IMG/VR virus record: IMGVR_UViG_3300042987_001047
Span: 1 to 22,968 of that record
Reading direction: 5' to 3' (one strand)
Origin: a virus
DNA length: 22,968 nt
A program made the position numbers and the translations under genes. This document shows, one piece after another, positions 3,640 to 22,900 of this stretch (position 1 is its first letter; each line of letters starts with the position of its first letter). The notes below the pieces were generated by a model. That model was not told where the DNA came from. It made no database searches and worked only from the letters and a program-made list of their open reading frames with translations.

Positions 3640-5394
3640 TTATTTTCCAACCAGCTCGGAGAAATCGACGCCAGTGCGAGTGGCGATGAAATTCAGAGTG
3701 ATGAAGTTGATTGAACGTGCTGGCTTGATGTAGATGTCAGCACGGAACTCGTTGCGATCGATTACGTCGCCTGTGTTGTTAGTCTCATCGCAGACCACCT
3801 TGAAGTCGGTGATACCACGGCGGCCCTGAACATCACGCAGGAATGGTTCGACCATATTGCGGAACATTGCGCGGGTGAACTCGTCGTTCAGCTCGAACAG
3901 CTGGAACTTAGCCGCAGTAGCGACTGACTTTTCAAGTGCAATGAACAGGCGACGGACGTTGATACGATCGAAGGCTGATGGCTTAGCCAGAGCAGTCTTG
4001 TCTCCATAGAGGACAGTTCCCTGACCTGGGAAGGAGACGATCGGATTGATGCGGGCCTTGTACAATGTATCACGATCAGCCTGTTTTGGATTGAAGGCGA
4101 TCTTCGTGATGCCAAGGAGTTGACCGCGATTCAGACCGGCTGGTGAGAACCAGGCATCAGCAACGTTGTCAGTATAAGCACAGAGACCAGCAACGTGTCC
4201 GCATGCAGGAATCCAGCGATAGACATCGTTGTACTTGTCATAGACCTTAACTGCCGTGCTGTCAATCACCGCATACGACGTCGAAGTGAGCGTATCTGCC
4301 CAAGTCTTGACATCAGCAGCAGGAGTTGCTGTTCCGACTGTATCCTCGGTTGGAGGCGATACGAAGACCACAATATCCTTGCGAGCATTGGCAACAGAGA
4401 TTAGCTTTTCAGCAATCGTATTAGCTCCGTTAGCATCATTCGTGGAGAACAGCAGGTTAACGTCAACTGTTTCTGCATCAGCAAAGACGTCAATTCCGGT
4501 GCTCAGCTGTGATGTACCGACTGTAGAACCATTCGCTCCGCCTGATAACGAATAACCTTTGACGGTCGATTCCGTTCCAAATGAGATTCCAGCGGAAGCT
4601 GCTTCTCCAGAATTTGGCATAATTAGCGCTTGGCCGTCTGGAGCATCAAAGTGGTCGAGCCAGTAGATATAGTTTGACTCGGTATTGACGACGTTCTTGT
4701 AGTAGTTTGAAGTGCCGTCCGCCTTGACCGCGTCAGAGGCCTGGGAAACGAAGGCGAACTTCTCAAGAACCTGACCCTTTGTTCCGCTGATCAGTCCATC
4801 CTCGTCGATAACGACGATATGGATTTCATCGTTTGACGCTCCATACTGAGCTGCGAATGCACTAGTTCCAGGAGCAGCATCAAAGTTTGATGCATAGTTG
4901 ATAACGGCACCATTTACGGTAGTTGTCCAGGCGCCGAAGGCAGCCGAGCTCGAGCAAACCTCAACTCGAAGCGAATCGCCGAGAACTCCGGGGAACTTGG
5001 CACCCCAGACTCCTACGTTAGCCGCACCACCTTCATACGAATCTTCGTATGACTGACGGTTCTTGATAAGCAATCCAATGTTACCGCCGGAACCCGATGT
5101 CGAATTCTTTGCAGTAGTTGATCCGCCACTTCCATCCGGAACTACGCGAACTACCTTCAAGGCAGTGGCGTACTTCAGAAATGAAGCGGCAGTGAAAAAT
5201 GATTTTGCTGTGGTGTCGTTCGGGGAACCGAATGTGTTTACGAGCTCTTTCTCGCTCGAGACAGTACGGATTTCCTCGGCAGGACCCCAGCTGAAAGCTC
5301 CGACGAATCCACCGATTGAGGTAGAAACGGCCGGAACGACGTTCGTCAAGTCAATTTCCTTGACCTGAACTCCGGGTGATACTTGGAATGCCAT
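3640..5394 (-). CDS. 18: Contractile tail sheath protein, T4 gp18-like
   Basis: Forms the outer sheath that contracts to drive the tube through the host envelope. 584 residues against 659 in T4; the difference probably lies in the exposed, variable middle domains. The N-terminus is typical of the family (SPGVQVKEIDLTNVVPAVST, then GGFVGAFSWGPAEEI), as is the C-terminal domain (FRNMVEPFLRDVQGRRGITD, then DIYIKPARSINFITLNFIAT). The middle is Ser/Thr/Gly/Ala-rich with low conservation. The gene lies between the large terminase and the tube, separated by 81 nt upstream and 28 nt downstream. A TAATAAATA late-promoter-like element stands about 60 nt upstream (5455-5462). The site before the ATG is weak (TGAGAA). 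Confidence 0.96.
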   Translation of the reverse strand: MAFQVSPGVQVKEIDLTNVVPAVSTSIGGFVGAFSWGPAEEIRTVSSEKELVNTFGSPNDTTAKSFFTAASFLKYATALKVVRVVPDGSGGSTTAKNSTSGSGGNIGLLIKNRQSYEDSYEGGAANVGVWGAKFPGVLGDSLRVEVCSSSAAFGAWTTTVNGAVINYASNFDAAPGTSAFAAQYGASNDEIHIVVIDEDGLISGTKGQVLEKFAFVSQASDAVKADGTSNYYKNVVNTESNYIYWLDHFDAPDGQALIMPNSGEAASAGISFGTESTVKGYSLSGGANGSTVGTSQLSTGIDVFADAETVDVNLLFSTNDANGANTIAEKLISVANARKDIVVFVSPPTEDTVGTATPAADVKTWADTLTSTSYAVIDSTAVKVYDKYNDVYRWIPACGHVAGLCAYTDNVADAWFSPAGLNRGQLLGITKIAFNPKQADRDTLYKARINPIVSFPGQGTVLYGDKTALAKPSAFDRINVRRLFIALEKSVATAAKFQLFELNDEFTRAMFRNMVEPFLRDVQGRRGITDFKVVCDETNNTGDVIDRNEFRADIYIKPARSINFITLNFIATRTGVDFSELVGK

Positions 5395-11542: not shown

Positions 11543-12469
11543 TTAGCAAGCGCTATATGAACTGCTGTACTCGGGACCCTGTTGCTCTTGGCATGTATAG
11601 CGATCACCATTCCCGCAGCTATTTCCACACGGGCAGTAGCAATCTTCCGAGCATGTAACTTGACCATTTAAGCATGGATAATTTGGATTAGATACCCAGC
11701 TACAATTGCAAGAGCAGTCGCAAGTGCAGTTTTCGTTATTCTCATCGCAGCAGCCGGTACAACATCCAGTGCATTCATAATTCTGAGAATTATTACAGTA
11801 ATCGCAAGCACCCGGATCGCACGAACAGCCACCGGTGCCATATCCATAGCTATTATCGCAATTGCAATCATAGCTACACGGATTGCAATTGCATGTTTCA
11901 GAACAATTATGGCATCCCCAAGTTCCGTTATCATTGCAATCTGGGCCGTTTTGGCTGCAATAGTCAAATTCATTACAAGTCATCCAAACTACCCCGATGC
12001 CGGGAGAATATGTAGTACCTACGCTATTCACCATCTTAAGCCTAAAAGCCATATTTTGGCTGTAATTGACGTAGTTGTTTGCATCAACATTGATCCATCC
12101 CGGGGCATTATATGTACCCAAATTCGCCGCGTCTGCCCAAGTACAGCTAGATATAGGTGCTCTTTGAAGCGTGATCGTGATATTTCCAGTCCCGGCATTT
12201 AAATACCAACTTATCTCGTTATCGAAGTTATACCATAAGCATCTGTAACTTGGAGTTGATGTATAAGAACTGACGGATGCTGCTACTGCGCTACTCTTTC
12301 CGAATCCATCGAACAAACTAACAGCGCTACCGGCGGTCGTTTTCTGAAACAATGCTCGAACTGTAGATTGGTTCAGAGAGATCTGCGTGGTATTAGGACT
12401 AACACCAAGTTCGGTGTTAACCTGTTGCATCGAAAGTGAAACTCCTGCTCCAAAATTCGGTAGTGCCAT
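11543..12469 (-). CDS. Tail-fibre-like protein with an extreme Cys-rich C-terminal domain
   Basis: 308 residues. Residues 14-58 (MQQVNTELGVSPNTTQISLN, then VRALFQKTTAGSAVSLFDGFGKS) are the VNTELG / ISL / VR-LF / GKS module that opens many phage tail-fibre and adhesin proteins, so virion association is likely. Residues 60-160 are beta-rich (WYLNAGTGNITITLQ). From 165 to the end, 32 of 144 residues are Cys, in short CxC, CxxC and CC steps mixed with Asn, Asp, Gly, Ser and Tyr; I see no perfect period. This could be a disulphide-bonded rod or a metal-loaded domain. A TATAAATA late promoter stands 11 nt upstream, implying a nearly leaderless message. The reading frame is open throughout, so a frameshift artefact is unlikely. 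No signal peptide. Confidence 0.8.
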   Translation of the reverse strand: MALPNFGAGVSLSMQQVNTELGVSPNTTQISLNQSTVRALFQKTTAGSAVSLFDGFGKSSAVAASVSSYTSTPSYRCLWYNFDNEISWYLNAGTGNITITLQRAPISSCTWADAANLGTYNAPGWINVDANNYVNYSQNMAFRLKMVNSVGTTYSPGIGVVWMTCNEFDYCSQNGPDCNDNGTWGCHNCSETCNCNPCSYDCNCDNSYGYGTGGCSCDPGACDYCNNSQNYECTGCCTGCCDENNENCTCDCSCNCSWVSNPNYPCLNGQVTCSEDCYCPCGNSCGNGDRYTCQEQQGPEYSSSYSAC

Positions 12470-12479
12470 AGTATTGTCC

Positions 12480-12487
12480 TATTTATA
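12480..12487 (-). promoter_or_regulatory. T4-type late promoter (TATAAATA) before the Cys-rich gene
   Basis: The minus strand reads ATATAAATAGGAC, an exact late-promoter core, between the hairpin at 12498-12526 and the ATG at 12469. With T4 spacing, transcription would start near 12474, leaving about five untranslated bases; the AGGA at 12477-12480 would then be outside the transcript from this promoter and useful only to read-through messages. Confidence 0.8.
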
Positions 12488-12967: not shown

Positions 12968-12975
12968 TATTTATT
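12968..12975 (-). promoter_or_regulatory. Late-promoter-like TAATAAATA overlapping the outer-membrane gene stop
   Basis: The minus strand reads TTTTAATAAATAGAG. The first TAA is the stop codon of the outer-membrane protein gene (12974-12976). The ATG of the 133-aa gene is 22 nt downstream. Same form as the elements before the portal and sheath genes. Confidence 0.6.
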
Positions 12976-13777
12976 AAAATCGCCAGGCGAAGATTATGAA
13001 GGATCGGCTGTCATACCCATCTTTCAGCAATCTGGGCATATATTCTAGGCTCAGATGAGCCGCAGAATTGATCTTGTACTGGAAATTAGGACCGACATAC
13101 CATTCATGGAATCCGCCTTCATAGTCATTGTAGCGGTACATGGTGCTGATTCCCAGTGTGACATGCTTCGTCAATACCTTTGCAATACTGAGAGTGGCTG
13201 CGTACTCACGTTCCTGAGCTTCCTTGGTGTCTGCGATGTTCGCCTCGTAGATGGCATTCAGTCCCCAGATATAGTCAGTCTTGCCGATACGGTCTCCGAG
13301 CAACAGCTTCGGTTCAATTCCTTGTTGGCCATTCAGGAGCTTGTGCTCAAAGTACAGTGTAGGATTGCCGAAGATCTTGCCCCAATCGGCCAGAGCATAA
13401 CGAACCTCCCAACTGAATCCACGCCAGCCGAACTGCTTCTTGTTCTCGGGACCGTCGTAGACCGTGTGAGCATACAGGTCAAGCTCGAGGCGATTACCCA
13501 GGCCGAAGGCGAACTCGTCGCGCATACGTACCTGGACAGGTCCGTTCTGGCGTTCGCGTATATCGAACCACTTCTCGTAGATGACTGCTTTCGGAGGAGT
13601 CATCACGTAGACCCGAGTACTAGGAAATTTCCTGGTCAACGTCCATTCTGGCTGGCCGTATTCTCCAGCAGAAGAAAAGGGAGCATTGCGATTTGCAACG
13701 ACTCGAACTTCATTAAGCTGCTCTGCAGCAAAAGCCGAGGCAGCCATTAGCATTGCGATCAATGTCAGTTTTTTCAT
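12974..13777 (-). CDS. Secreted outer-membrane beta-barrel protein, phage-encoded
   Basis: 267 residues from ATG at 13777. That start is preferred to an in-frame ATG 14 codons earlier because it gives a clean Sec signal peptide (KKLTLIAMLMAASAFA, likely cut after Ala17 in AFA|AEQ) and a 4-nt overlap with the permease stop. The mature protein alternates polar and hydrophobic residues with many aromatics (RLELDLYAHTVYDG, TLYFEHKLLNG, HLSLEYMPRLL) and ends SFIIFAWRF, with the terminal Phe expected of proteins inserted by the BAM complex. I estimate 10-12 strands; this is not computed. The mature N-terminus reads LNEVRVVANR, reminiscent of TonB-box regions (EVVVTAxR), though it is far too short for a TonB-dependent receptor. 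Role unknown: transport with the neighbouring permease, surface masking or receptor blocking are options. Confidence 0.8.
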   Translation of the reverse strand: MKKLTLIAMLMAASAFAAEQLNEVRVVANRNAPFSSAGEYGQPEWTLTRKFPSTRVYVMTPPKAVIYEKWFDIRERQNGPVQVRMRDEFAFGLGNRLELDLYAHTVYDGPENKKQFGWRGFSWEVRYALADWGKIFGNPTLYFEHKLLNGQQGIEPKLLLGDRIGKTDYIWGLNAIYEANIADTKEAQEREYAATLSIAKVLTKHVTLGISTMYRYNDYEGGFHEWYVGPNFQYKINSAAHLSLEYMPRLLKDGYDSRSFIIFAWRF

Positions 13778-14790
13778 AGGAATGTAAATAATGCAGCGGT
13801 AGCTAAAAGTAGTGTACACCAGGCACCGATCGTCTTATAATAAGACCAGAGCGGCGTACCAAAGTATTTATTGCCTATCATCACACACTTGTGCGCAGGA
13901 CTGAGAAGGTAACCGGCATATTCAACTGCGAAGAACCAGAGGAAATACTTAGTACCAAACGCTAGAGTCATCACGGTGGCCATTGCGATAAACTTTCCGC
14001 TGGATCCCATAATGAAGCTGGCCAGAAATCCGACAGCAGTAATTAGTGCCATCCCAGTAAAAGCACCGGCATCAACCTCGAGTGCTCGAACGAATGTAGC
14101 GAGCATAGATTCGTACCCTTTGCTGAAGTAGCCCAGGAGAATCACTATGGCAGCTACGGCCAACACTCCCCAGCGAACATAGGACAGAAGTTTCCTGAGG
14201 TTCCAGGTCCTGGTCAGAAATGCGTAGTACAGAGCCAGAGATCCAAAGATCGGAAAGATGTATTGCTGTCCGCCTAGATACACGTAGGTCAGGATGGCAG
14301 CGAAGAACGGCAGGACATTACGAATCACCGAGCTCATCTTGAACGGAATGGTGTCGATGTGAATGTCATCCTCCTTCATTCGCCAGACGATGTGATAGGT
14401 GATGAACGAGAGAGTGACGAATATCAGAGGAGAGATCATCCAGAGCCAGGCCCAATAAGACATACCGAGAGCTGCCATCGGTATGATGACGGTCTTCTCA
14501 AGTGGACTCCAGAGATAGTAGTGATGCGTAGAGAGATAATCCACGACTCCCATCTTATGCCGGCACTTGGAGTGAGCCATGGTATCCAATACTCCGGCAC
14601 TGACCGTCACTCTGCCTTCGATAGGAAGAACTCCACCAGCAGCACTGGTCAGAAACAGGACCAGACGATTGCTCTTGAATGACTCCTTGATGTAGGAGTA
14701 GATCGGCATGAACAGGTTGTGCTCCTTGACGATCCCGGCGATAATCATCACGAAGAACAACATCCAGAGATATTGTAGTGCGTCTATCAT
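13774..14790 (-). CDS. Polytopic inner-membrane permease-like protein (possibly DUF401-type)
   Basis: 338 residues from ATG at 14790, chosen over a GTG at 14838 because the ATG falls 5 nt after the upstream stop and starts directly before a membrane segment. About nine or ten hydrophobic segments are visible near 5-21, 42-58, 100-118, 119-136, 158-172, 177-193, 207-222, 243-262, 266-288 and 320-338. Two polar signatures stand out: GGVLPIEGRVTVSAGVLD (52-69) and SPAHKCVMIGNKYFGTPL (297-314). This pair, one per half of the protein, resembles the GG-x-x-P / SP-x-H-x-C-x-x-x-x-x-YF signatures I associate with DUF401 membrane proteins, distant relatives of ArsB/NhaD-type ion transporters; the match is from memory. 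The substrate cannot be read. The gene overlaps the outer-membrane gene by 4 nt. Confidence 0.8.
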   Translation of the reverse strand: MIDALQYLWMLFFVMIIAGIVKEHNLFMPIYSYIKESFKSNRLVLFLTSAAGGVLPIEGRVTVSAGVLDTMAHSKCRHKMGVVDYLSTHHYYLWSPLEKTVIIPMAALGMSYWAWLWMISPLIFVTLSFITYHIVWRMKEDDIHIDTIPFKMSSVIRNVLPFFAAILTYVYLGGQQYIFPIFGSLALYYAFLTRTWNLRKLLSYVRWGVLAVAAIVILLGYFSKGYESMLATFVRALEVDAGAFTGMALITAVGFLASFIMGSSGKFIAMATVMTLAFGTKYFLWFFAVEYAGYLLSPAHKCVMIGNKYFGTPLWSYYKTIGAWCTLLLATAALFTFL

Positions 14791-14795
14791 AATTT

Positions 14796-16436
14796 TTATG
14801 CTTTCTTCACGACTGCGATGTAGAATCCGTTCCACCACATCTCTGGATCTTCCTGCTCATTTAGGACGATCTTGTCATAGATGATCTCTAGACCAGATTC
14901 TGCGATTCCTTTCCGAGCTCCGCTGACCACGCCGTCCCAATTTGCATCATCGAAGATCAGGACAGCCTCATCAGCAAAAACATCAGAGAAGTATTTAGCA
15001 GCCTGCCGGTTCATCTCCTCCGAGTGGTCGGCATCGTAGAAGAACAGGTCGATCGATCCTAGCTGAGACTTGTCCACATTTCGAAAGTCGCAGTCGAAGA
15101 CCTTGATCGAATTGGCGCCCTTGAACGCTCGTGCGTTCTGAATGAATGACTCCTTAGATGCTGCGATTGCTACCTTCTGATCAGCTGAGACCGTATTCTC
15201 TTTCCAATGATCGACGGCGTATGCTCTCAGGGCGTTGTCTTCCAGAGTAGCGCAGAACGTTCCGCCGTTCAGGACTCCAATCTCAAGGTATCCAGTGGAG
15301 ATCTTGCCCAGGCCATTCAGGAACTGCCTCATCTTATTTGACGTCAGACCGTCGACTGGACTATGGATCGGCCAGTTGACGGTATCTAGAAGAAGTTGAG
15401 CGACAGCTGCTACCTTCGGATTGTTCTTGTTACCCTTGGCCTTCCAGACCTTGTCGCAGTAGTTGCAGTCCCAGCAATCGAACTTGCAGGTCTTGATCTT
15501 CTGCCTCCAGGCATTGATCGGCTTCTCGATCAGATTCGTCTCCTCGATGTAATCGTTGAAGCCATCGAACAGGATCTCCTCACCTCGGGCGAACCGAGAG
15601 ATGATATCCATCGTCTCGTCCAGTCGATTGCTGTTCTCTCGGCCGTGCATCTTGATGACATCGATGCCTAGATCCAGGAATTGCAGCCAGTCCTCTCGCC
15701 ACGGCGGGAAGTTAGCGTTCTTCAGCTTGACCGCCGAGTCTCGAGTGTCCCACAATTGGCAACTGACACGACTGATCGGATCTGTGAAGTACTGTGGACC
15801 GTCAGTCCGCGTGTTGTTGAACTGGTAGTGCTCATTCATCACCGGGCATCCACCAGCGCACCCCTCATTGGCCAGCAGGGACAGCTTGATCCCATACCTA
15901 TCCTTGGCCTTCTTGATCTCCTTCAGTCTATCGTGGTCGCGCATCAGCACTCGATCCAGGTTGACATAGTCGAATCCGGCCTCAGCAAGCTTGGCCACAT
16001 CTCGGGCCTCGGAGACACCACGCAGGATGGTGTTCTTCACGAACAGCTCTGGGAAGTTATGCTTGACCTGCTTGGTCAGCATCCAGTGCGTGTGCGGAAG
16101 CGTGCAGGACCTGACGCCCTTCTCGTAGAGTGGGCGGAAGTTTTTGATCCACGTCTCTAGGTTCTTCTGGTCTGGTCGTATAGCGATGTTGTTGAACGTC
16201 GCCGAGACTGGAATCCCAGTAGAATTCTGGACGTACAGAGCAGCCTCAACGAGGAAGGCAGCATCATCAGGTCCTCCAGCGAACACGTCGCCCATCGCAT
16301 CCTGCAGGAATGGCGGTATCCTGCAGGTGAAGTAGATGTCGTAGATCCAGTCCTTATGTGTCTTGCAGAAGGAGAGGAATTTGCTGAACTGCTGCTCTGT
16401 TAGTTTCGGATTGAGCGGTATACTAAAGATTTTCAC
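14796..16436 (-). CDS. U32-like Cys-cluster domain fused to a class I methyltransferase
   Basis: 546 residues from GTG at 16436 (opening VKIFSIPLNPKL); a TTG seven codons earlier (16457) is possible but adds a basic stretch inside the neighbour's frame. The N-terminal part (to about 300) looks like the TIM-barrel of U32 'peptidase' family proteins: GFDYVNLDRVLMRDHDRLKE, then LLANEGCAGGCPVMNEHYQF with Cys193 and Cys197, SCQLWD with Cys226, and a CKFDCWDCNYC cluster (317-327). U32 relatives such as UbiU/UbiV and RlhA act in hydroxylation and bind [4Fe-4S] via conserved cysteines. Residues about 375-546 are a SAM methyltransferase: YLEIGVLNGGTF (motif I, 383-394), DLFFYDADHSEE (463-474) and LIFDDANWDGVVSGARKG (493-510). 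The target is unknown. The gene overlaps the coiled-coil gene by 14 nt and precedes the permease by 5 nt. Confidence 0.78.
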   Translation of the reverse strand: MKIFSIPLNPKLTEQQFSKFLSFCKTHKDWIYDIYFTCRIPPFLQDAMGDVFAGGPDDAAFLVEAALYVQNSTGIPVSATFNNIAIRPDQKNLETWIKNFRPLYEKGVRSCTLPHTHWMLTKQVKHNFPELFVKNTILRGVSEARDVAKLAEAGFDYVNLDRVLMRDHDRLKEIKKAKDRYGIKLSLLANEGCAGGCPVMNEHYQFNNTRTDGPQYFTDPISRVSCQLWDTRDSAVKLKNANFPPWREDWLQFLDLGIDVIKMHGRENSNRLDETMDIISRFARGEEILFDGFNDYIEETNLIEKPINAWRQKIKTCKFDCWDCNYCDKVWKAKGNKNNPKVAAVAQLLLDTVNWPIHSPVDGLTSNKMRQFLNGLGKISTGYLEIGVLNGGTFCATLEDNALRAYAVDHWKENTVSADQKVAIAASKESFIQNARAFKGANSIKVFDCDFRNVDKSQLGSIDLFFYDADHSEEMNRQAAKYFSDVFADEAVLIFDDANWDGVVSGARKGIAESGLEIIYDKIVLNEQEDPEMWWNGFYIAVVKKA

Positions 16437-17133
16437 CTGGCGTCTTGTTCGCCTCAAGCTTCAATTGCTCATTGGCAAATGCATCGATATAGTTGATATT
16501 GCTGTCAGTAAGCTTGAGCTGCTCGACGGCTTCTTTGCCGATTGCATCGACAGCTTTACCGAGCGCGAGATTATACTTGATCGCCAGTCCAAGAGTCTGT
16601 TTGACGTCCTCCAGAGGCATCATCAGGATCGAGTCCATATTGCCCTGGCTGATCCGGCCGATGGTGTTGATATCCAGCGAGGCCTGTTTCGCCATGCGGG
16701 TGATCCAGTAGTTGCGCTCCTCGAGTTCATTGTGCGCAGCAAAGTTCTTGAGATCCTCGATGTTCGGAACTAGGTCACGAATCATAGCAATGAAGTTGTC
16801 GATCTCGTTCTGGCACATCCTCTCCTTCTTGTCGTACATATGGATGTCCCAGTCAGCCTGCTCAAGATCGACTTCCAGCAGCTGTTTCTTCAGGGCATCG
16901 ATCTCGTTTCCGATGTCACGCAAGATTATCTGGCGTTGGATTTGCCGCTTCTTGCGCTCACGGTCGATCTGCTTCTTCATACCAATGCGCGTGTCGAGCT
17001 CAATCAGAGCCTGACGAACACGGCGGTAATCGGTAACCTGCGAGTTAACCACAAAGTAACGCGACTGGAAATCAGACATTCCCAGCGAGTTCTCATTCTC
17101 CGTCACGAAGTTCAAAATCTCAGTGTCATTCAT
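16423..17133 (-). CDS. Coiled-coil protein of unknown function
   Basis: 236 residues, not recognised. Residues about 45-95 are a highly charged predicted coiled coil (MKKQIDRERKKRQIQRQIIL, then GNEIDALKKQLLEVDLEQAD); a second helical segment covers 105-135. The C-terminal half (150-225) is also helical, with LEDVKQTLGLAIKYNLALGK and AVEQLKLTDSNI. No signal peptide, membrane span or cysteine-rich motif. It follows the lysine-rich 201-aa gene by 14 nt and its end overlaps the methyltransferase fusion by 14 nt. It sits at the end of the fibre gene group, so a tail-fibre assembly chaperone or virion component is a fair but untested guess. No recognisable ribosome site. Confidence 0.7.
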   Translation of the reverse strand: MNDTEILNFVTENENSLGMSDFQSRYFVVNSQVTDYRRVRQALIELDTRIGMKKQIDRERKKRQIQRQIILRDIGNEIDALKKQLLEVDLEQADWDIHMYDKKERMCQNEIDNFIAMIRDLVPNIEDLKNFAAHNELEERNYWITRMAKQASLDINTIGRISQGNMDSILMMPLEDVKQTLGLAIKYNLALGKAVDAIGKEAVEQLKLTDSNINYIDAFANEQLKLEANKTPGENL

Positions 17134-17147
17134 ATAGTATATGTATG

Positions 17148-17753
17148 TCAGAATTTATACCCAAACTTTAGAGGGAAGTCCTTTCTAATGTTGCGCTCTT
17201 CATTCCATTTGCCTAGGCGAGTGGCTAGATCCTTTGACATCTCGATTCCTAGGATCTCCTCACGGGCCTGAACGATCTCATCGATGGTCTTCATCTTGTC
17301 GATGTCTTTCTTCAGGTCAGCATGCTTCTTAGCATTGTGCGCTGGTCTCTTCTTACCATCAAGCTCAGGCTTTCCCTTCTTACGGTCATCCATCTCAATG
17401 TCCACATGGAAGTGAAAGGCTTTCTTCATCAGTGAGATGACAGCTTCTTTCTGAGGATCAGTGATGTAGACTTTCGTTCTGCGGCTGCCCTTTGCCAGTT
17501 CGTCGGCATCTGGCTGTAGACCTTCCAGATCAGAGTACGCTTTACGGTATCCTCGAGTCTCACCGTAGATATTGCGAACCGCGGCCTCAGCCTCAGTTAT
17601 TTCTAGCAAAGGGATATTGTCTGGATGAGCACGCACTTCTGCTAATGCCGCATCAGTAACCGAGATGATGTTGAAATTATCCACGCATCCGAGGACTGTC
17701 ATTCCATTGATCTGCGGAATGTACCTGAAGAATTTTGCAAGATAGTATGCCAT
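17148..17753 (-). CDS. Lysine-rich protein of unknown function
   Basis: 201 residues, not recognised. The N-terminus (AYYLAKFFRYIPQINGMTVL, then DAALAEVRAHPDNIPLLEIT) looks like a small folded domain. The middle (about 120-165) is very rich in Lys, Asp and His (DDRKKGKPELDGKKRPAHNA and on), probably a flexible basic linker. The C-terminus (165-201) is helical followed by basic and aromatic residues ending KFGYKF. The gene starts 8 nt after the stop of the second fibre-like paralogue and lies 14 nt before the coiled-coil gene. No signal peptide. A structural or assembly role near the fibres is suggested only by position. Confidence 0.7.
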   Translation of the reverse strand: MAYYLAKFFRYIPQINGMTVLGCVDNFNIISVTDAALAEVRAHPDNIPLLEITEAEAAVRNIYGETRGYRKAYSDLEGLQPDADELAKGSRRTKVYITDPQKEAVISLMKKAFHFHVDIEMDDRKKGKPELDGKKRPAHNAKKHADLKKDIDKMKTIDEIVQAREEILGIEMSKDLATRLGKWNEERNIRKDFPLKFGYKF

Positions 17754-17761
17754 AAGATGAT

Positions 17762-18832
17762 TTATATGTTGGTTCCGAGTGTGCCGCCGAGCAATATGCA
17801 GCTACCAGTTCCGCAGCAGCCAGATGATGCTCCGCCGTGTCCTTTGGGTTGAGTGTCTGATCCCATTGCGACCTGAGTATCTGAGGTGTAATACTGCTTC
17901 TGAGTATTGTTAGTCTGAGCACCGTTGTAAGATCCCAGCGCATATCCCCAATCCTGTCCGATCTGCATATTTTCTTCGCCGTTTGATTCTGGCCGCGCAA
18001 TCGTGGTGATCTGAGTCAGCGTGGTGTCATTGAACTTGTATGTCGTACCAGTAACATTTGTGGTTGCATTGTATCCGAATCCCCACTTGCTAGACAAGCC
18101 TTTTGCCACGCCATCAAGATTTCCCGCAAAGCTCCATGCGCCAGCTGCAGACCAAGTCTCGGTTGAAAAGCTCAACTTAGCCGAGTTTCCATTAGCGCCC
18201 ACTGTTCCGAAGTACTGGCCAAAGAATCCAGTGTATGCGCCATACGTATTTCCGCCTGATCCGGCAGTACAGACATTTCCAAGGTAACCGGAATAAGCCA
18301 TCGTGTCAGTGACTGTGCTGAACTTTTCGGTGACGTTTGATCCACCTCCTGCGATATAGATTGCAGTGAGACCTGGATTCATCAGTGTCTTGGTATCCTG
18401 CCGAGCAATCTTAAGGTCCCAGGATGACTGGTGAGTTCTCAGTGTCTCAGAGATCATACTCATCGATGACACGAATGATGTCGCTCCGTTCCATGACACA
18501 CCGTTTGGAAACACGTAGGAATAGTAATCGCTGAATCCACCGTTGATGTAGTTGGCGATGTAGTCCATCATGTCGCCAAGGTTGACGGTCGTGTCCGTCA
18601 TATGTACAGTGCGGTTTGTGTTCCTCCAGGGGGAACTATCCTTGTACCCGCAATGCAGATATCCACGGGTGTAGATCGTACGGTACTTGAACGTATCCTG
18701 GCCGATCGGATTAGGATTTATCGCATATCCGTCTGAATTCCAGCTCTTGCCGTCGTAGAAGTAGACGTCTCCGTTTGGAGAGACGTACCTGGTACCGGAA
18801 CTAGGAGAACTTGGGAAACTTAGTACGGCCAT
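17762..18832 (-). CDS. Fibre-like virion protein, second tandem paralogue
   Basis: 356 residues. It begins with a short phage virion module: VLSFPSSPSSGTRYVSPNGD, then YFYDGKSWNSDG. A body of glycine-, serine- and aromatic-rich beta repeats follows, with NTNRTVHMTDTTVNLGDMMD (72-91), a series of SSMSMISETLRT / STVTDTMAYSGYLG / SFSTETWSAAG blocks that suggest a repeating blade or strand unit, and a Gly-rich end with GSDTQPKGHGGASSGCCG and a final GGTLGTNI. The preceding gene is its close paralogue across the full length. Known tail genes of cyanophage-type T4-like phages have this look (xTRGYxxxGYxxxxPWxNxNRTxH); function there is virion structural, and receptor binding is plausible. The start is 3 nt after the upstream stop. 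Confidence 0.78.
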   Translation of the reverse strand: MAVLSFPSSPSSGTRYVSPNGDVYFYDGKSWNSDGYAINPNPIGQDTFKYRTIYTRGYLHCGYKDSSPWRNTNRTVHMTDTTVNLGDMMDYIANYINGGFSDYYSYVFPNGVSWNGATSFVSSMSMISETLRTHQSSWDLKIARQDTKTLMNPGLTAIYIAGGGSNVTEKFSTVTDTMAYSGYLGNVCTAGSGGNTYGAYTGFFGQYFGTVGANGNSAKLSFSTETWSAAGAWSFAGNLDGVAKGLSSKWGFGYNATTNVTGTTYKFNDTTLTQITTIARPESNGEENMQIGQDWGYALGSYNGAQTNNTQKQYYTSDTQVAMGSDTQPKGHGGASSGCCGTGSCILLGGTLGTNI

Positions 18833-18835
18833 ACA

Positions 18836-19897
18836 TTATATAGAGGTACCCATCGTACCGCCTAGAAGAGTAACACTGCCACTGCCGCAAGAGCCTGATG
18901 ACATTCCGCCGTGTCCTTTAGGCTGACCATCGGATCCGAGCGCGACGCAACTATCAGTCAAATAAGAGGTCTTCGTAGAATTGTTAGTCTGACCAGCCCC
19001 ATTGTACGAGCCGAGGGTGTAACCCCAATCCTGTCCAACCTGGCAGTTTTCTTCACCGCAACTTTCAGGGCGACTGAAACTAGTAGATAGAGTTCCAGTC
19101 GTATCGTTGAACTTGTTGTAGGTAGATGATCCAGCATAACTGCCAGCCGCATTGTATCCCCAACCCCATTTACTAGAAAGCCCCTTTGGCTGACCGTCGC
19201 TGTTATTTGCTCCCCAGGCCCAAGTACCGGTAGTCCAGGTTTCAGTTGACCACGCTAGCCACGCTGAAGATCCACTCGATCCGATAATTCCATACGTTGC
19301 TCCCCAAAATCCGCTGGCCGCATAATTTCCATTTCCAGAACTTCCGACATAACTGGCATACATCATCGTATCGGTTATTGTATTGAATTTGTCAGTAGTA
19401 CCAGAATATCCGGAGGTAATATAGATTCCGGTCAATCCAGGATTCATCAGAGCTTTACAGTTTGTTCTGCTGACGGTCATGTAACGATTCGAGTTGATCG
19501 TTCGAAGCGTCTCAGTGATCATACTCATCGAAGATGTTACGTTAGAGTTTCCTCCCACAGCACCCGAGTTGTTAAAAACGTAAGTATTATAGTCACTGAA
19601 CCCGCCATCGATGTACGATGAGTTATTGTCCATCATATCACCCAGATTGACACTTGTATCCGAGACGTGAATAGTGCGATTCGTATTTTTCCAAGGAGAT
19701 CCGCCCTGATATCCGCAATGAGTGTATCCGCGAGTGTAGATCGTACGGTACAGGAACGTGTTGTTAGCAATTGGATTTGGATTGATCGTCGTTCCAGTCG
19801 AAGACCAGACACGGCCATCGTAGAAGTACGGATGTCCGTTTGGAGAAATGTACCGTGCGCCAGTAGCAGGTGAACTTGGAAAACTTAGTACTGACAT
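18836..19897 (-). CDS. Fibre-like virion protein, first tandem paralogue
   Basis: 353 residues, full-length paralogue of the next gene: VLSFPSSPATGARYISPNGH, YFYDGRVWSSTG, TRGYTHCGYQGGSPWKNTNR and GSDGQPKGHGGMSSGSCGSG all have a counterpart there. Differences concentrate in the middle (about 95-240), where loop lengths and Gly/Ser/Asn content vary, as expected if the loops face a receptor. Cysteines here (for example SRPESCGEENCQVGQDWGY) are partly replaced in the paralogue (SRPESNGEENMQIGQDWGY counterpart with Ala for Ser at the start), so any disulphide is not shared. A good Shine-Dalgarno (AAAGG, 9 nt before the ATG) lies at the end of the fibre gene, whose stop is 4 nt upstream. Probably a tail adhesin or whisker component. 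Confidence 0.78.
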   Translation of the reverse strand: MSVLSFPSSPATGARYISPNGHPYFYDGRVWSSTGTTINPNPIANNTFLYRTIYTRGYTHCGYQGGSPWKNTNRTIHVSDTSVNLGDMMDNNSSYIDGGFSDYNTYVFNNSGAVGGNSNVTSSMSMITETLRTINSNRYMTVSRTNCKALMNPGLTGIYITSGYSGTTDKFNTITDTMMYASYVGSSGNGNYAASGFWGATYGIIGSSGSSAWLAWSTETWTTGTWAWGANNSDGQPKGLSSKWGWGYNAAGSYAGSSTYNKFNDTTGTLSTSFSRPESCGEENCQVGQDWGYTLGSYNGAGQTNNSTKTSYLTDSCVALGSDGQPKGHGGMSSGSCGSGSVTLLGGTMGTSI

Positions 19898-19901
19898 TGG
19901 A

Positions 19902-22900
19902 TTATGCCTTTGATGCTAGGAGTGCCTTCAGCTCGTCGATCTGGACCTGTTGAGCCTTGATCGCCTCGATGAGAAGCGGGATCATCTTCTCGTAGCGAAC
20001 AGTCAGGTATTCGTCTGAGATAGGAGCGGTCGTCACGATCTCAGGGAGAATTGCTTGTACTTCCTGAGCAGACACGCCGATCTCTCGTTTCTTCTGATAA
20101 CCTAGAGCCACAGCAGTCTCATTCGCCTCGAAGTAGAAACCGGACAGCGCCTTCACCTTCTCGATTGGATTCTCAATTGGACCAAGTTTGGTCTTCAGAC
20201 GTTCGTCAGAATAGTAAGCAGTGATGTTGTCTGTCGCACGGATTTCACCGGCAGTGCCAGATGCATTAGTGTTGATTCCTAGGGACTGGAATCGCGCATA
20301 TCCAGCATTGCTGATCGACGCGACATTCGCCGGCGTACTGACATCGCGGAAGATCCATCCACGATTCGCCGTATTATTCATAGTAAAGTAAGTAGCCCAG
20401 TCAGTACCATTTGATACACTGCCGTGTGTGCCGTATGTCGCGGTACTTGCAAACATCATTCCATATGTCGGCTGAGTGGTTGTTCCTCCAGTATTAACCC
20501 ACGATGGATAGAGCGCCAAGCCAAAACCAGCGCTTGATCCAGCGCCATTAACCTCTAAGCTATATTTGAGCTTTGCGCTCATTCCGCTAGTCACACTGTC
20601 TGCTGCCGGATCTACGAAATATGTGGTATCATTTTGGTCATAGAATACAGAAGAGCGCATCGAATTTGCGCTCCATAGGTCACCGCTCATATTGAGCGTC
20701 AGTCTTCCCGCTGACGCGCTCCATCCACCAATTCGGAATACGTTATCTGGATCCAATCCCATGTTTACTGCATAGGATCCGGATCGATGGAAAGACAAGA
20801 ATGCAGCGCCGCCGTCACTAGAATATGCCTGAAGACCAGGACTGTTGGTAGCTCCAAGATATACGCCGGATCCTTTATTGCTGTAAAAATATTGGTTACT
20901 GTAATAGCTACCGGAACCATTGACCGTCAGTCCGTTAAGATTGGACGTACTACCAGGATCGGTGTAATACGTGGTATCCCCTAGATCGTAATACCGATTG
21001 GCATAGAAATAACCATTGGACTCGACGTATGCTCGAGTATTATTTCCAGTCCTGAAGTAGATCGCACCTCCTGCATTCGGCGTATTCAGGAATGTGTTCG
21101 TGCTTCCATCAGTGATCAGCGTATAATCAGATCCTTGTCTCCATAGACCGGCATATGACTGATAGCTAGGATGCACACCGATCGTCATCGGATACGATCC
21201 ACCCGATGTCGCAGTGATGTTTCCGGTTGCAGTCAGCAGTCCGCTGACACTTACGTTGCCGTTGATGTTACCACCACCGACAGGATAGTACTGCGACATA
21301 TCTGGTGTCGGTGTGGCCACAACCCAGGCATTTGCCGTAGACCACCAGATGTTCAGCTTACCAGTATCAGTGTTCCACCAGAGGTCACCGTTTGCGATTG
21401 CAGTCGGAGTACCTGTCGTAGCACCAGACTGAATGAACATTCCTGGCAGAGTGATGCCGCTAGTGTAGTTGGAGCTGGCTTTTGTCCATGCGCCGTAGAG
21501 TGTTCCGCCGGAGTAAGCATTACCATAGCTCGATCTAACCGCCCAATTACCATTGTTGTTCAATAAACCGAAACCGTCGTTGTCCCAATAAACTAATCCC
21601 TTGAGCGTGCTAGCATGTCCTGCTCTGAATTTCAGCCCGCCGTATGTGAGACTTCCTCCACCAGCAACATTGTAGTAACCGGCTTCACCCGAATAAAAGT
21701 GCATCGCATAGTCGCTATTGTATAGACCATTTGCACCATTTGTCCTGAACCAATTTGCGCTGAAGACATCTCCTAAGTATACTTCACCGCTTCCTCCGCG
21801 TTGTACGATCTGACTTGCAGTATTTGCAGAAGTTGCCGTGATCGTGGCGGAGTTTGCCTGGTTATCAATCGAACGAGCACGGTCAACACGCACACCGTAC
21901 GTGTTGCTTCCGTTCCATCCCATTAAGCTGATGGCCTCACCCCATGTATTACTTCCAGCGCCGGTACTATTGATAGTGTTCTGCGCAGTATACTTGTCGA
22001 TTATACCACCGCCTGGTTCAGTACCAGCGGACGCATCAATCAAAACGTGGTTGTTTCCATAGTTCTTCCAGCGAAGATATTTTGCAACCTCAAGGTCGTT
22101 TGCTGCAGTGCCCCTAGCTGTAGATATATTTTGACCAGTTAGCGTGATGTCGGCAGAACCGTTAAACGAAACACCTGCAATATTGCGTGCGGTCTGCAGT
22201 GTGGTTGCGGTTGACGCATTGATTGCCCAGCTGCCAGATGCATCGCCACCAGTGCGAGTCGGAACGTTCAATACTGTACGGAAATTGGCAGGAGTATAGT
22301 AGCGAATGTACTGGTCATATGAAGCGTAAACTCGGTCAATCGCAGAAGTACCCTGATCTCCACTTATAGTATTAATCCAACCAGCTTGAATATAGCCATT
22401 TCCATCAGTACGAACAATCTTATTTGCTTCATTGTTGGTTCCGGTATGAACATCTAACCCATCTAGAAGATCCGCATTTAGATTTGTGACCTTCGTCGTT
22501 GAAGTTACTGTTAATGGAGCAGTACCTGTGGCAACGTTTGATATCAGTCTTGTACCAGTGACTGTTCCAGATACAACCAAATCCGATACGCCGTTTGCGC
22601 TCGGCTTGAGCGTCATTGCATCATATACTGTAGAACCTGACGGAGTGAATCTCCATCTCCACCAATCATTATTGTTGTCGTCCGTGAGATTAAAGTCAAA
22701 GAATGTAGAAGTTCCACTAATTGTCGTGGCAATAGAAGCACTGTCTGATCCTTCAGTGGTAAATCCAATAGACGTTACACTTGTCAGAGAAGTATGATTA
22801 TGGCTCGCCGCCGCTGCACCAATTTCTCCTAAAGTCCACGAAACGTCCGCCGATCCGTTTACTGATTTTCCGGTACTGCCAATCGTGAATGTGCGTGCCG

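Follow-up and report, generated by a model that had tools for sequence, protein, structure and literature searches.

The DNA analysed here, called the window below, is a 22,968-base virus record (IMG/VR IMGVR_UViG_3300042987_001047) that carries T4-type structural genes on its minus strand. Genes for the portal, tail tube, tail sheath, terminase, sheath-stabiliser, head-closure and fibre proteins share this strand, in agreement with the phage structural region recognised in an earlier note on this DNA. The terminase has its closest match in Phage C48C1 (64.5%). The subject of this report is a group of three further minus-strand genes, encoding an enzyme, a predicted inner-membrane permease and a predicted outer-membrane barrel. 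The enzyme gene (14796..16436; GTG start at 16436, stop ending at 14796) encodes 546 amino acids (aa), the permease gene (13774..14790; ATG at 14790, stop ending at 13774) 338 aa, and the barrel gene (12974..13777; ATG at 13777, stop ending at 12974) 267 aa. Read from the minus strand, the enzyme and permease genes are separated by 5 nucleotides (nt), and the permease and barrel genes are coupled by a 4-nt ATGA start/stop overlap (13774..13777), as the earlier note had described. The three genes continue a packed series that begins with tail-fibre genes. The three-gene observation is more than chance, because the homologues of all three are open frames and are clustered in divergent phages.

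The exact T4-type late-promoter motif TATAAATA occurs twice in the window (12480-12487 and 1387-1394), each time just 5' of same-strand genes, and a scan of the window found no exact copy directly before the three genes. Only exact matches were used, because a scan allowing one mismatch found 19 sites against 9.6 expected, which is near chance per site. The enzyme, permease and barrel genes are likely expressed late.

Predicted structures of the permease and the barrel

The permease passes the gathering cut-off of the DUF401 family (PF04165; 26.2-27.6 bits versus 24), which is matched by 31 of 34 permease relatives, and has an E-value of 1.4e-80 against PHROG 14035. The structure model of the permease, calculated from 31 sequences, has a mean pLDDT of 88.2. 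Its best fold match in the PDB is LaINDY (6wtw; E 7.5e-4, TMq 0.69, a moderate match), followed by TRAP SiaQM, Pho90 and NaDC/NaDC3. The permease models as a carrier of the ion-transporter superfamily, with the LaINDY, TRAP-M and Pho90 fold. It resembles the DUF401/TIGR00529 family and this superfamily in its DUF401 score and in the carrier folds of its model. In contrast to the family, it is phage-encoded, is paired with an outer-membrane barrel and scores far under the TIGR00529 cut-off (38.9 versus 378 bits). A sequence search of the PDB with the permease returned no match. DUF401 has no function assigned to it, and the titles and abstracts found on this family contain nothing on its function. 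In the phage collection, the permease is found in just nine records, all of cyanophages. The search of GTDB genomes returned one contig from a metagenome-assembled genome (L100; loci are given with L numbers), with 40% identity and cell-type neighbours, and no barrel was seen near the permease there.

The barrel protein is composed, in order, of a signal peptide, a TonB-box-like segment (LNEVRVVAN), the conserved N-terminal GEYGQPEWTLTRKFPSTRVYVMTPP and 12 beta-strands (residues 65-266). Its AlphaFold2 model, based on 18 sequences, has 12 strands and a mean pLDDT of 86.8. The best PDB folds are FapF, the COG4313 channel, NanC and KdgM, which share the twelve strands and the overall fold with the window barrel. 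However, their identity to it is only about 10-13%, with no detectable sequence homology, and they have their own known N-terminal parts, whereas the window barrel has the TonB-box-like N-terminus. The barrel matches no Pfam family above the cut-off, a PDB sequence search gave chance-level matches only, and no relative was found in isolated phages or in GTDB genomes. The BAM-type barrel proposed in the earlier note is ruled out, since the protein models as a channel of 12 strands, not 16, and has no POTRA or Omp85 match.

The window barrel is also not a TonB-dependent receptor proper. A TonB-box-like segment, of unusual form in the window, may link it to these receptors (PF00593/PF07715), but the protein has only 267 aa and 12 strands versus 22, and matches neither the Plug domain (PF07715) nor the receptor barrel (PF00593). 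It may work like a TonB-dependent receptor though it is not filed as one. In most of the small barrels, and in most of the large proteins that replace them in related loci, the signal peptide is followed by a form like LQEIVVTAK or LDPVVVTA. Among the alignable sequences, 19 of 21 small barrels and 22 of 23 large partners were counted as having the motif, without a background rate, and this post hoc pattern is suggestive of a TonB-box-like segment in the barrel family.

Linkage of the pair and exchange of the outer-membrane partner

Relatives were collected by scans of IMG/VR, from which the best 80 of 435 permease-relative stretches and 80 of 106 barrel relatives were kept. The permease gene is adjacent to the barrel gene in 70 of the 80 barrel loci, fused to it in 3 and located 2.3 kb away in 2 (L156 and L167, with the enzyme gene in between). 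Four loci without a permease are cut at the contig end (L132, L139, L165, L200). The sole true exception is L198 (barrel at 3887-4735, full flanks), a 119-kb record without a permease match. Dereplication at 90% identity leaves 27 barrels, of which 21 are adjacent to a permease, 2 fused, 1 near, 2 contig-cut and 1 without a permease. The earlier note had named rare adjacency in relatives as a ground for refutation, which these counts contradict for the permease and the barrel. The three-gene cassette that it proposed is less well supported: the recurrent unit consists of permease and barrel, and the enzyme, present in 123 cyanophage records mostly without a permease, is judged to be a neighbour.

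The gene order among the 21 adjacent dereplicated pairs is barrel-permease in 12 and permease-barrel in 9; this lack of conservation argues against mere descent of one arrangement. The order of all three genes is not fixed either: it is enzyme-barrel-permease in L008, L156 has the barrel first with two genes between, and the fusions differ again. The permease and the barrel are fused in one frame on three contigs from two divergent lineages, represented by the close relatives L137 and L138 and by the divergent L014 (the same as L136). In the fusions, the last helix of the permease leads to a signal-peptidase-like site, and the barrel comes after it. The position of this would-be site after the last helix would therefore place the barrel part in the periplasm.

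Of the open reading frames adjacent to the permease, 37 of 157 were scored as barrel-like, versus 7 of the 607 remaining ones in these loci, using a home-made, untuned score in one run on redundant loci. Some true barrels whose last residue is not aromatic (L046, L049, L065) escape this score. The gene after the permease in the phages S-H25 and MbCM1 was considered as a barrel and rejected, as its product is glycine-rich and fibre-like.

Permeases clustered at 85% identity differ in their outer-membrane partner, which is either a small barrel (L049, L099) or a protein of about 590 aa (L052, L095, L098). The partner is a 302-aa barrel in L049 and a 584-aa receptor-like protein in L052; likewise, it is a 294-aa barrel in L099 and receptor-like proteins of about 590 aa in L095 and L098. 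Permeases of the L044 group have a Gcw_chp barrel, barrels of about 185-200 aa, or none. The partner families other than the receptor-like proteins are Gcw_chp (L044), DUF2490 (L073) and OMP_b-brl/KdgM-like (L042, L064, L066).

Among the members of the 590-aa family with at least 40% identity, 23 of 24 adjoin a permease gene and the remaining one is cut; six distant members (25-29% identity) do not adjoin one. The indirect evidence of sequence similarity suggests that these proteins are TonB-dependent-receptor-like. The protein of L048 matches Plug with an E-value of 1.3e-3, under the Pfam cut-off, those of L107, L115 and L076 have no Pfam match, and the family is homologous to L125, which passes PF00593 with 49 bits. 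A family profile including the distant members matches the haem receptor PhuR (2.5e-8), and this match depends on those members. A PDB sequence search with a five-member alignment of the partners gave no match, and none was obtained in isolated phages. The receptor-like proteins (L048, L052, L076, L095 and relatives) hold the slot of the small barrel. The distant genes for receptor-like proteins of about 585 aa (L125-L130) are on IMG/VR contigs without a permease, which could be cellular or prophage DNA. Receptor-like proteins of about 590 aa and small barrels with near-identical signal peptides, MRKTITMLSLMLALLFTTTMSFGQ, were observed in L095 4214, L098, L107, L099 5120 and L080, a pattern suggestive of recombination in the signal peptide or at the TonB-box junction.

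A proposed two-membrane uptake route and its alternatives

The computed linkage, fusion, partner exchange, predicted folds and motif presence are best read as a phage-encoded import route through both membranes, formed by the permease and the barrel, for a probably anionic solute and with an exchangeable outer-membrane part. We give this reading about an even chance of being correct. We infer the import direction, the TonB dependence and the benefit to the phage, and the anionic substrate is taken from the superfamily. The movement of a small molecule across the envelope, put forward in the earlier note, is the best-supported reading for the pair, but not for a share of the enzyme in it.

Late in infection, the barrel protein would be exported and inserted into the outer membrane as a 12-strand channel. 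Host TonB-ExbBD may open or energise the channel, as suggested by the N-terminal TonB-box-like segment. The solute would enter the periplasm, and the DUF401 permease, acting as a secondary carrier, would take it into the cytoplasm, where it would feed phage production. The outer-membrane partner can be swapped between phages. A more specific proposal, which is tentative, is that of a TonB-energised import system with a minimal 12-strand channel in place of a full TonB-dependent receptor and the carrier as its constant part, which feeds infected cells in T4-like phages of several Gram-negative host groups. The hosts would be Gram-negative, judging from the signal peptides, the outer-membrane barrels and the TonB-type motifs, and the differing styles of signal peptides hint at more than one host group.

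Several observations weigh against the import route. The fold match of the permease to LaINDY is moderate (E 7.5e-4, TM 0.69), and carriers of the ion-transporter superfamily include exporters. The TonB-box pattern is loose and was written after viewing the sequences, and the window copy, LNEVRVVAN, departs from its usual form. The IMG/VR loci are redundant, and the permease set, restricted to the best 80 of 435, over-represents sequences close to that of the window. Many permease loci, for example L021-L038, have no adjacent barrel. A barrel profile gave no match in 20 barrel-less permease records, which comprise 3 complete cyanophage genomes and mostly fragments, in a search run without a positive control. 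Because of these loci and the three cyanophage genomes, the pair is not obligatory for the permease; the dependence is one-sided, with the barrel nearly always accompanied by the permease. One simple interpretation is that host porins can serve the permease as well.

Superinfection exclusion or remodelling of the surface is an unlikely alternative. Here the barrel, sitting in the outer membrane late in infection, would mask or push aside a receptor, or sequester TonB and so keep out TonB-dependent phages, and the permease would assist it or prevent DNA from entering at the inner membrane. The lambdoid porins are phage-encoded outer-membrane exclusion factors. Late barrels of multiple families fit an alteration of the cell surface, and the TonB-box motif could compete for TonB. 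Lipoproteins encoded by phages can also exclude, as does Llp of phage T5, which blocks FhuA (PMC9586334). However, exclusion leaves unexplained why nearly all barrels adjoin, or fuse with, a carrier-fold permease, and why they are swapped for receptor-like proteins of about 590 aa with the same permease partner.

It is quite unlikely that the pair moves a compound, such as a toxic metabolite, a signal or the product of a neighbouring enzyme, out of the infected cell. The exporters of the superfamily mentioned above are consistent with export, as are the best PDB fold of the barrel, FapF, which is a secretion channel, and the 2OG oxygenase and tryptophan halogenase genes that adjoin the permease in some relatives. 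However, the TonB-box motifs and the receptor-like partners point to import, and the neighbouring enzymes vary and are missing from many loci.

The tail-fibre region may collect cargo, such as the 2OG oxygenases and the halogenase, and the permease and barrel genes could be independent residents of this mosaic neighbourhood, adjacent by shared history only. The frequent occurrence of the permease without a barrel agrees with this explanation, which is nonetheless improbable enough to be given little weight. Both gene orders, fusions in two lineages and several unrelated barrel families beside the permease speak for function over place. Permease loci are also found in replication-gene regions (for example L028 and L031, assigned by eye), and the barrel-like reading frames are concentrated next to the permease, within the limits of the untuned score and redundant loci given above. 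A role in the virion or in lysis is very improbable despite the position of the genes within the structural region, since a signal peptide with a 12-strand barrel and a multi-helix carrier fold, which have no match to virion or lysis families, do not suit it and some permease loci are located away from tail regions.

BFVD contains phages with annotated outer-membrane barrels, PF24653 in Pfam is a barrel family of cyanophages, and a marine megaphage is reported to encode a TonB-dependent receptor of the SusC type (PMC9723777). For a linked pair of inner-membrane carrier and outer-membrane partner, in contrast to these viral transporters and outer-membrane proteins, a limited search of open-licence papers yielded no report. 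If the import route is real, some lytic phages install their own uptake path through both membranes, beyond redirecting host metabolism. This would provide a testable link between nutrients and infection, the first functional context for DUF401, and a channel of 12 strands, possibly coupled to TonB, whose size is far below that of known TonB-dependent receptors. Outer-membrane barrels of phages should then not be taken for exclusion factors in every case.

The enzyme gene and its neighbourhood

The enzyme is a Cys-rich, U32-like N-terminal part fused to a SAM-methyltransferase-like domain, and it matches PHROG 1458 from end to end (E 4e-166). The methyltransferase named in the earlier note is borne out by the C-terminal part, which scores 40.9 bits against Methyltransf_24 (cut-off 26.3). 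The U32-type Cys cluster named there is retained as a motif-level likeness at the hallmark segments, without a Pfam match. The cysteines of the N-terminal part are invariant among relatives, and the segments NEGCxGxC and FKMHGRE, compared with the Cys cluster and K-x-x-G-R segment typical of U32, align with one U32 protein in hhalign, with a probability of just 5% (P 0.008). The search for PF01136 (Peptidase U32) found no match in the window and gave matches in 8 of 14 control genomes, and the N-terminal part has no credible PDB match.

We judge the enzyme to be an independent resident of the tail region that is common in phages and no necessary part of the transport unit, because its homologues occur in 123 cyanophage records (<60% identity), nearly all without a permease, and the tail-fibre region is its usual home. 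The idea that it makes or modifies the transported molecule finds no support. Upstream of the enzyme gene, and overlapping it by 14 nt, is a 236-aa gene (16423..17133, minus strand) that matches PHROG 1409 (E 3e-54), preceded by a 201-aa gene (17148..17753, minus strand) with a weak match to PHROG 1604 (E 2e-4). The PHROG 1409 gene is found before the enzyme in L001, L002, L004 and L008 as well as in many viral loci, and homologues of the 201-aa gene adjoin the PHROG 1409 gene in most enzyme loci. In S-H25, metaG-MbCM1 and P-HM2, the enzyme is positioned behind homologues of both upstream genes in the fibre region. Together with the two genes upstream of it, the enzyme matches the T4-like cyanophage block T4-GC 352/353/354, to which the PHROG 1458 enzyme belongs. 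In contrast to the window, the permease is missing from most cyanophage copies of the block, and this barrel from all those in the phage collection.

In L015-L019 and L080-L099, the enzyme is split into two adjacent genes, one for the Cys-rich part and one for the methyltransferase part. A tryptophan-halogenase gene (PF04820, 331 bits) is positioned between the enzyme and the permease in L084 (4289-5806), and L079 (4416-5939), L086 and L087 look alike by eye. In L022 (4635-5243), a 2OG-Fe(II) oxygenase gene (PF13759, 54.7 bits) is in this position, and many relatives (L022, L023, L025, L035-L038, L076) have such an oxygenase together with a gene of about 245 aa between the enzyme and the permease.

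The tight packing runs on upstream through the genes at 17148-17753, 17762-18832, 18836-19897 and 19902-22616, with gaps of 14, 8, 3 and 4 nt. The adjacent fibre-region proteins encoded at 17762-18832 and 18836-19897 (minus strand) are alike by eye, and the first matches PHROG 1417. On the other side of the barrel gene, a minus-strand gene (11543-12469) with an exact TATAAATA motif before its start encodes a protein of 308 aa whose N-terminus is fibre-like and whose last 170 residues contain 32 of its 34 cysteines. A similar Cys-rich protein is encoded in L007 (1427-2458).

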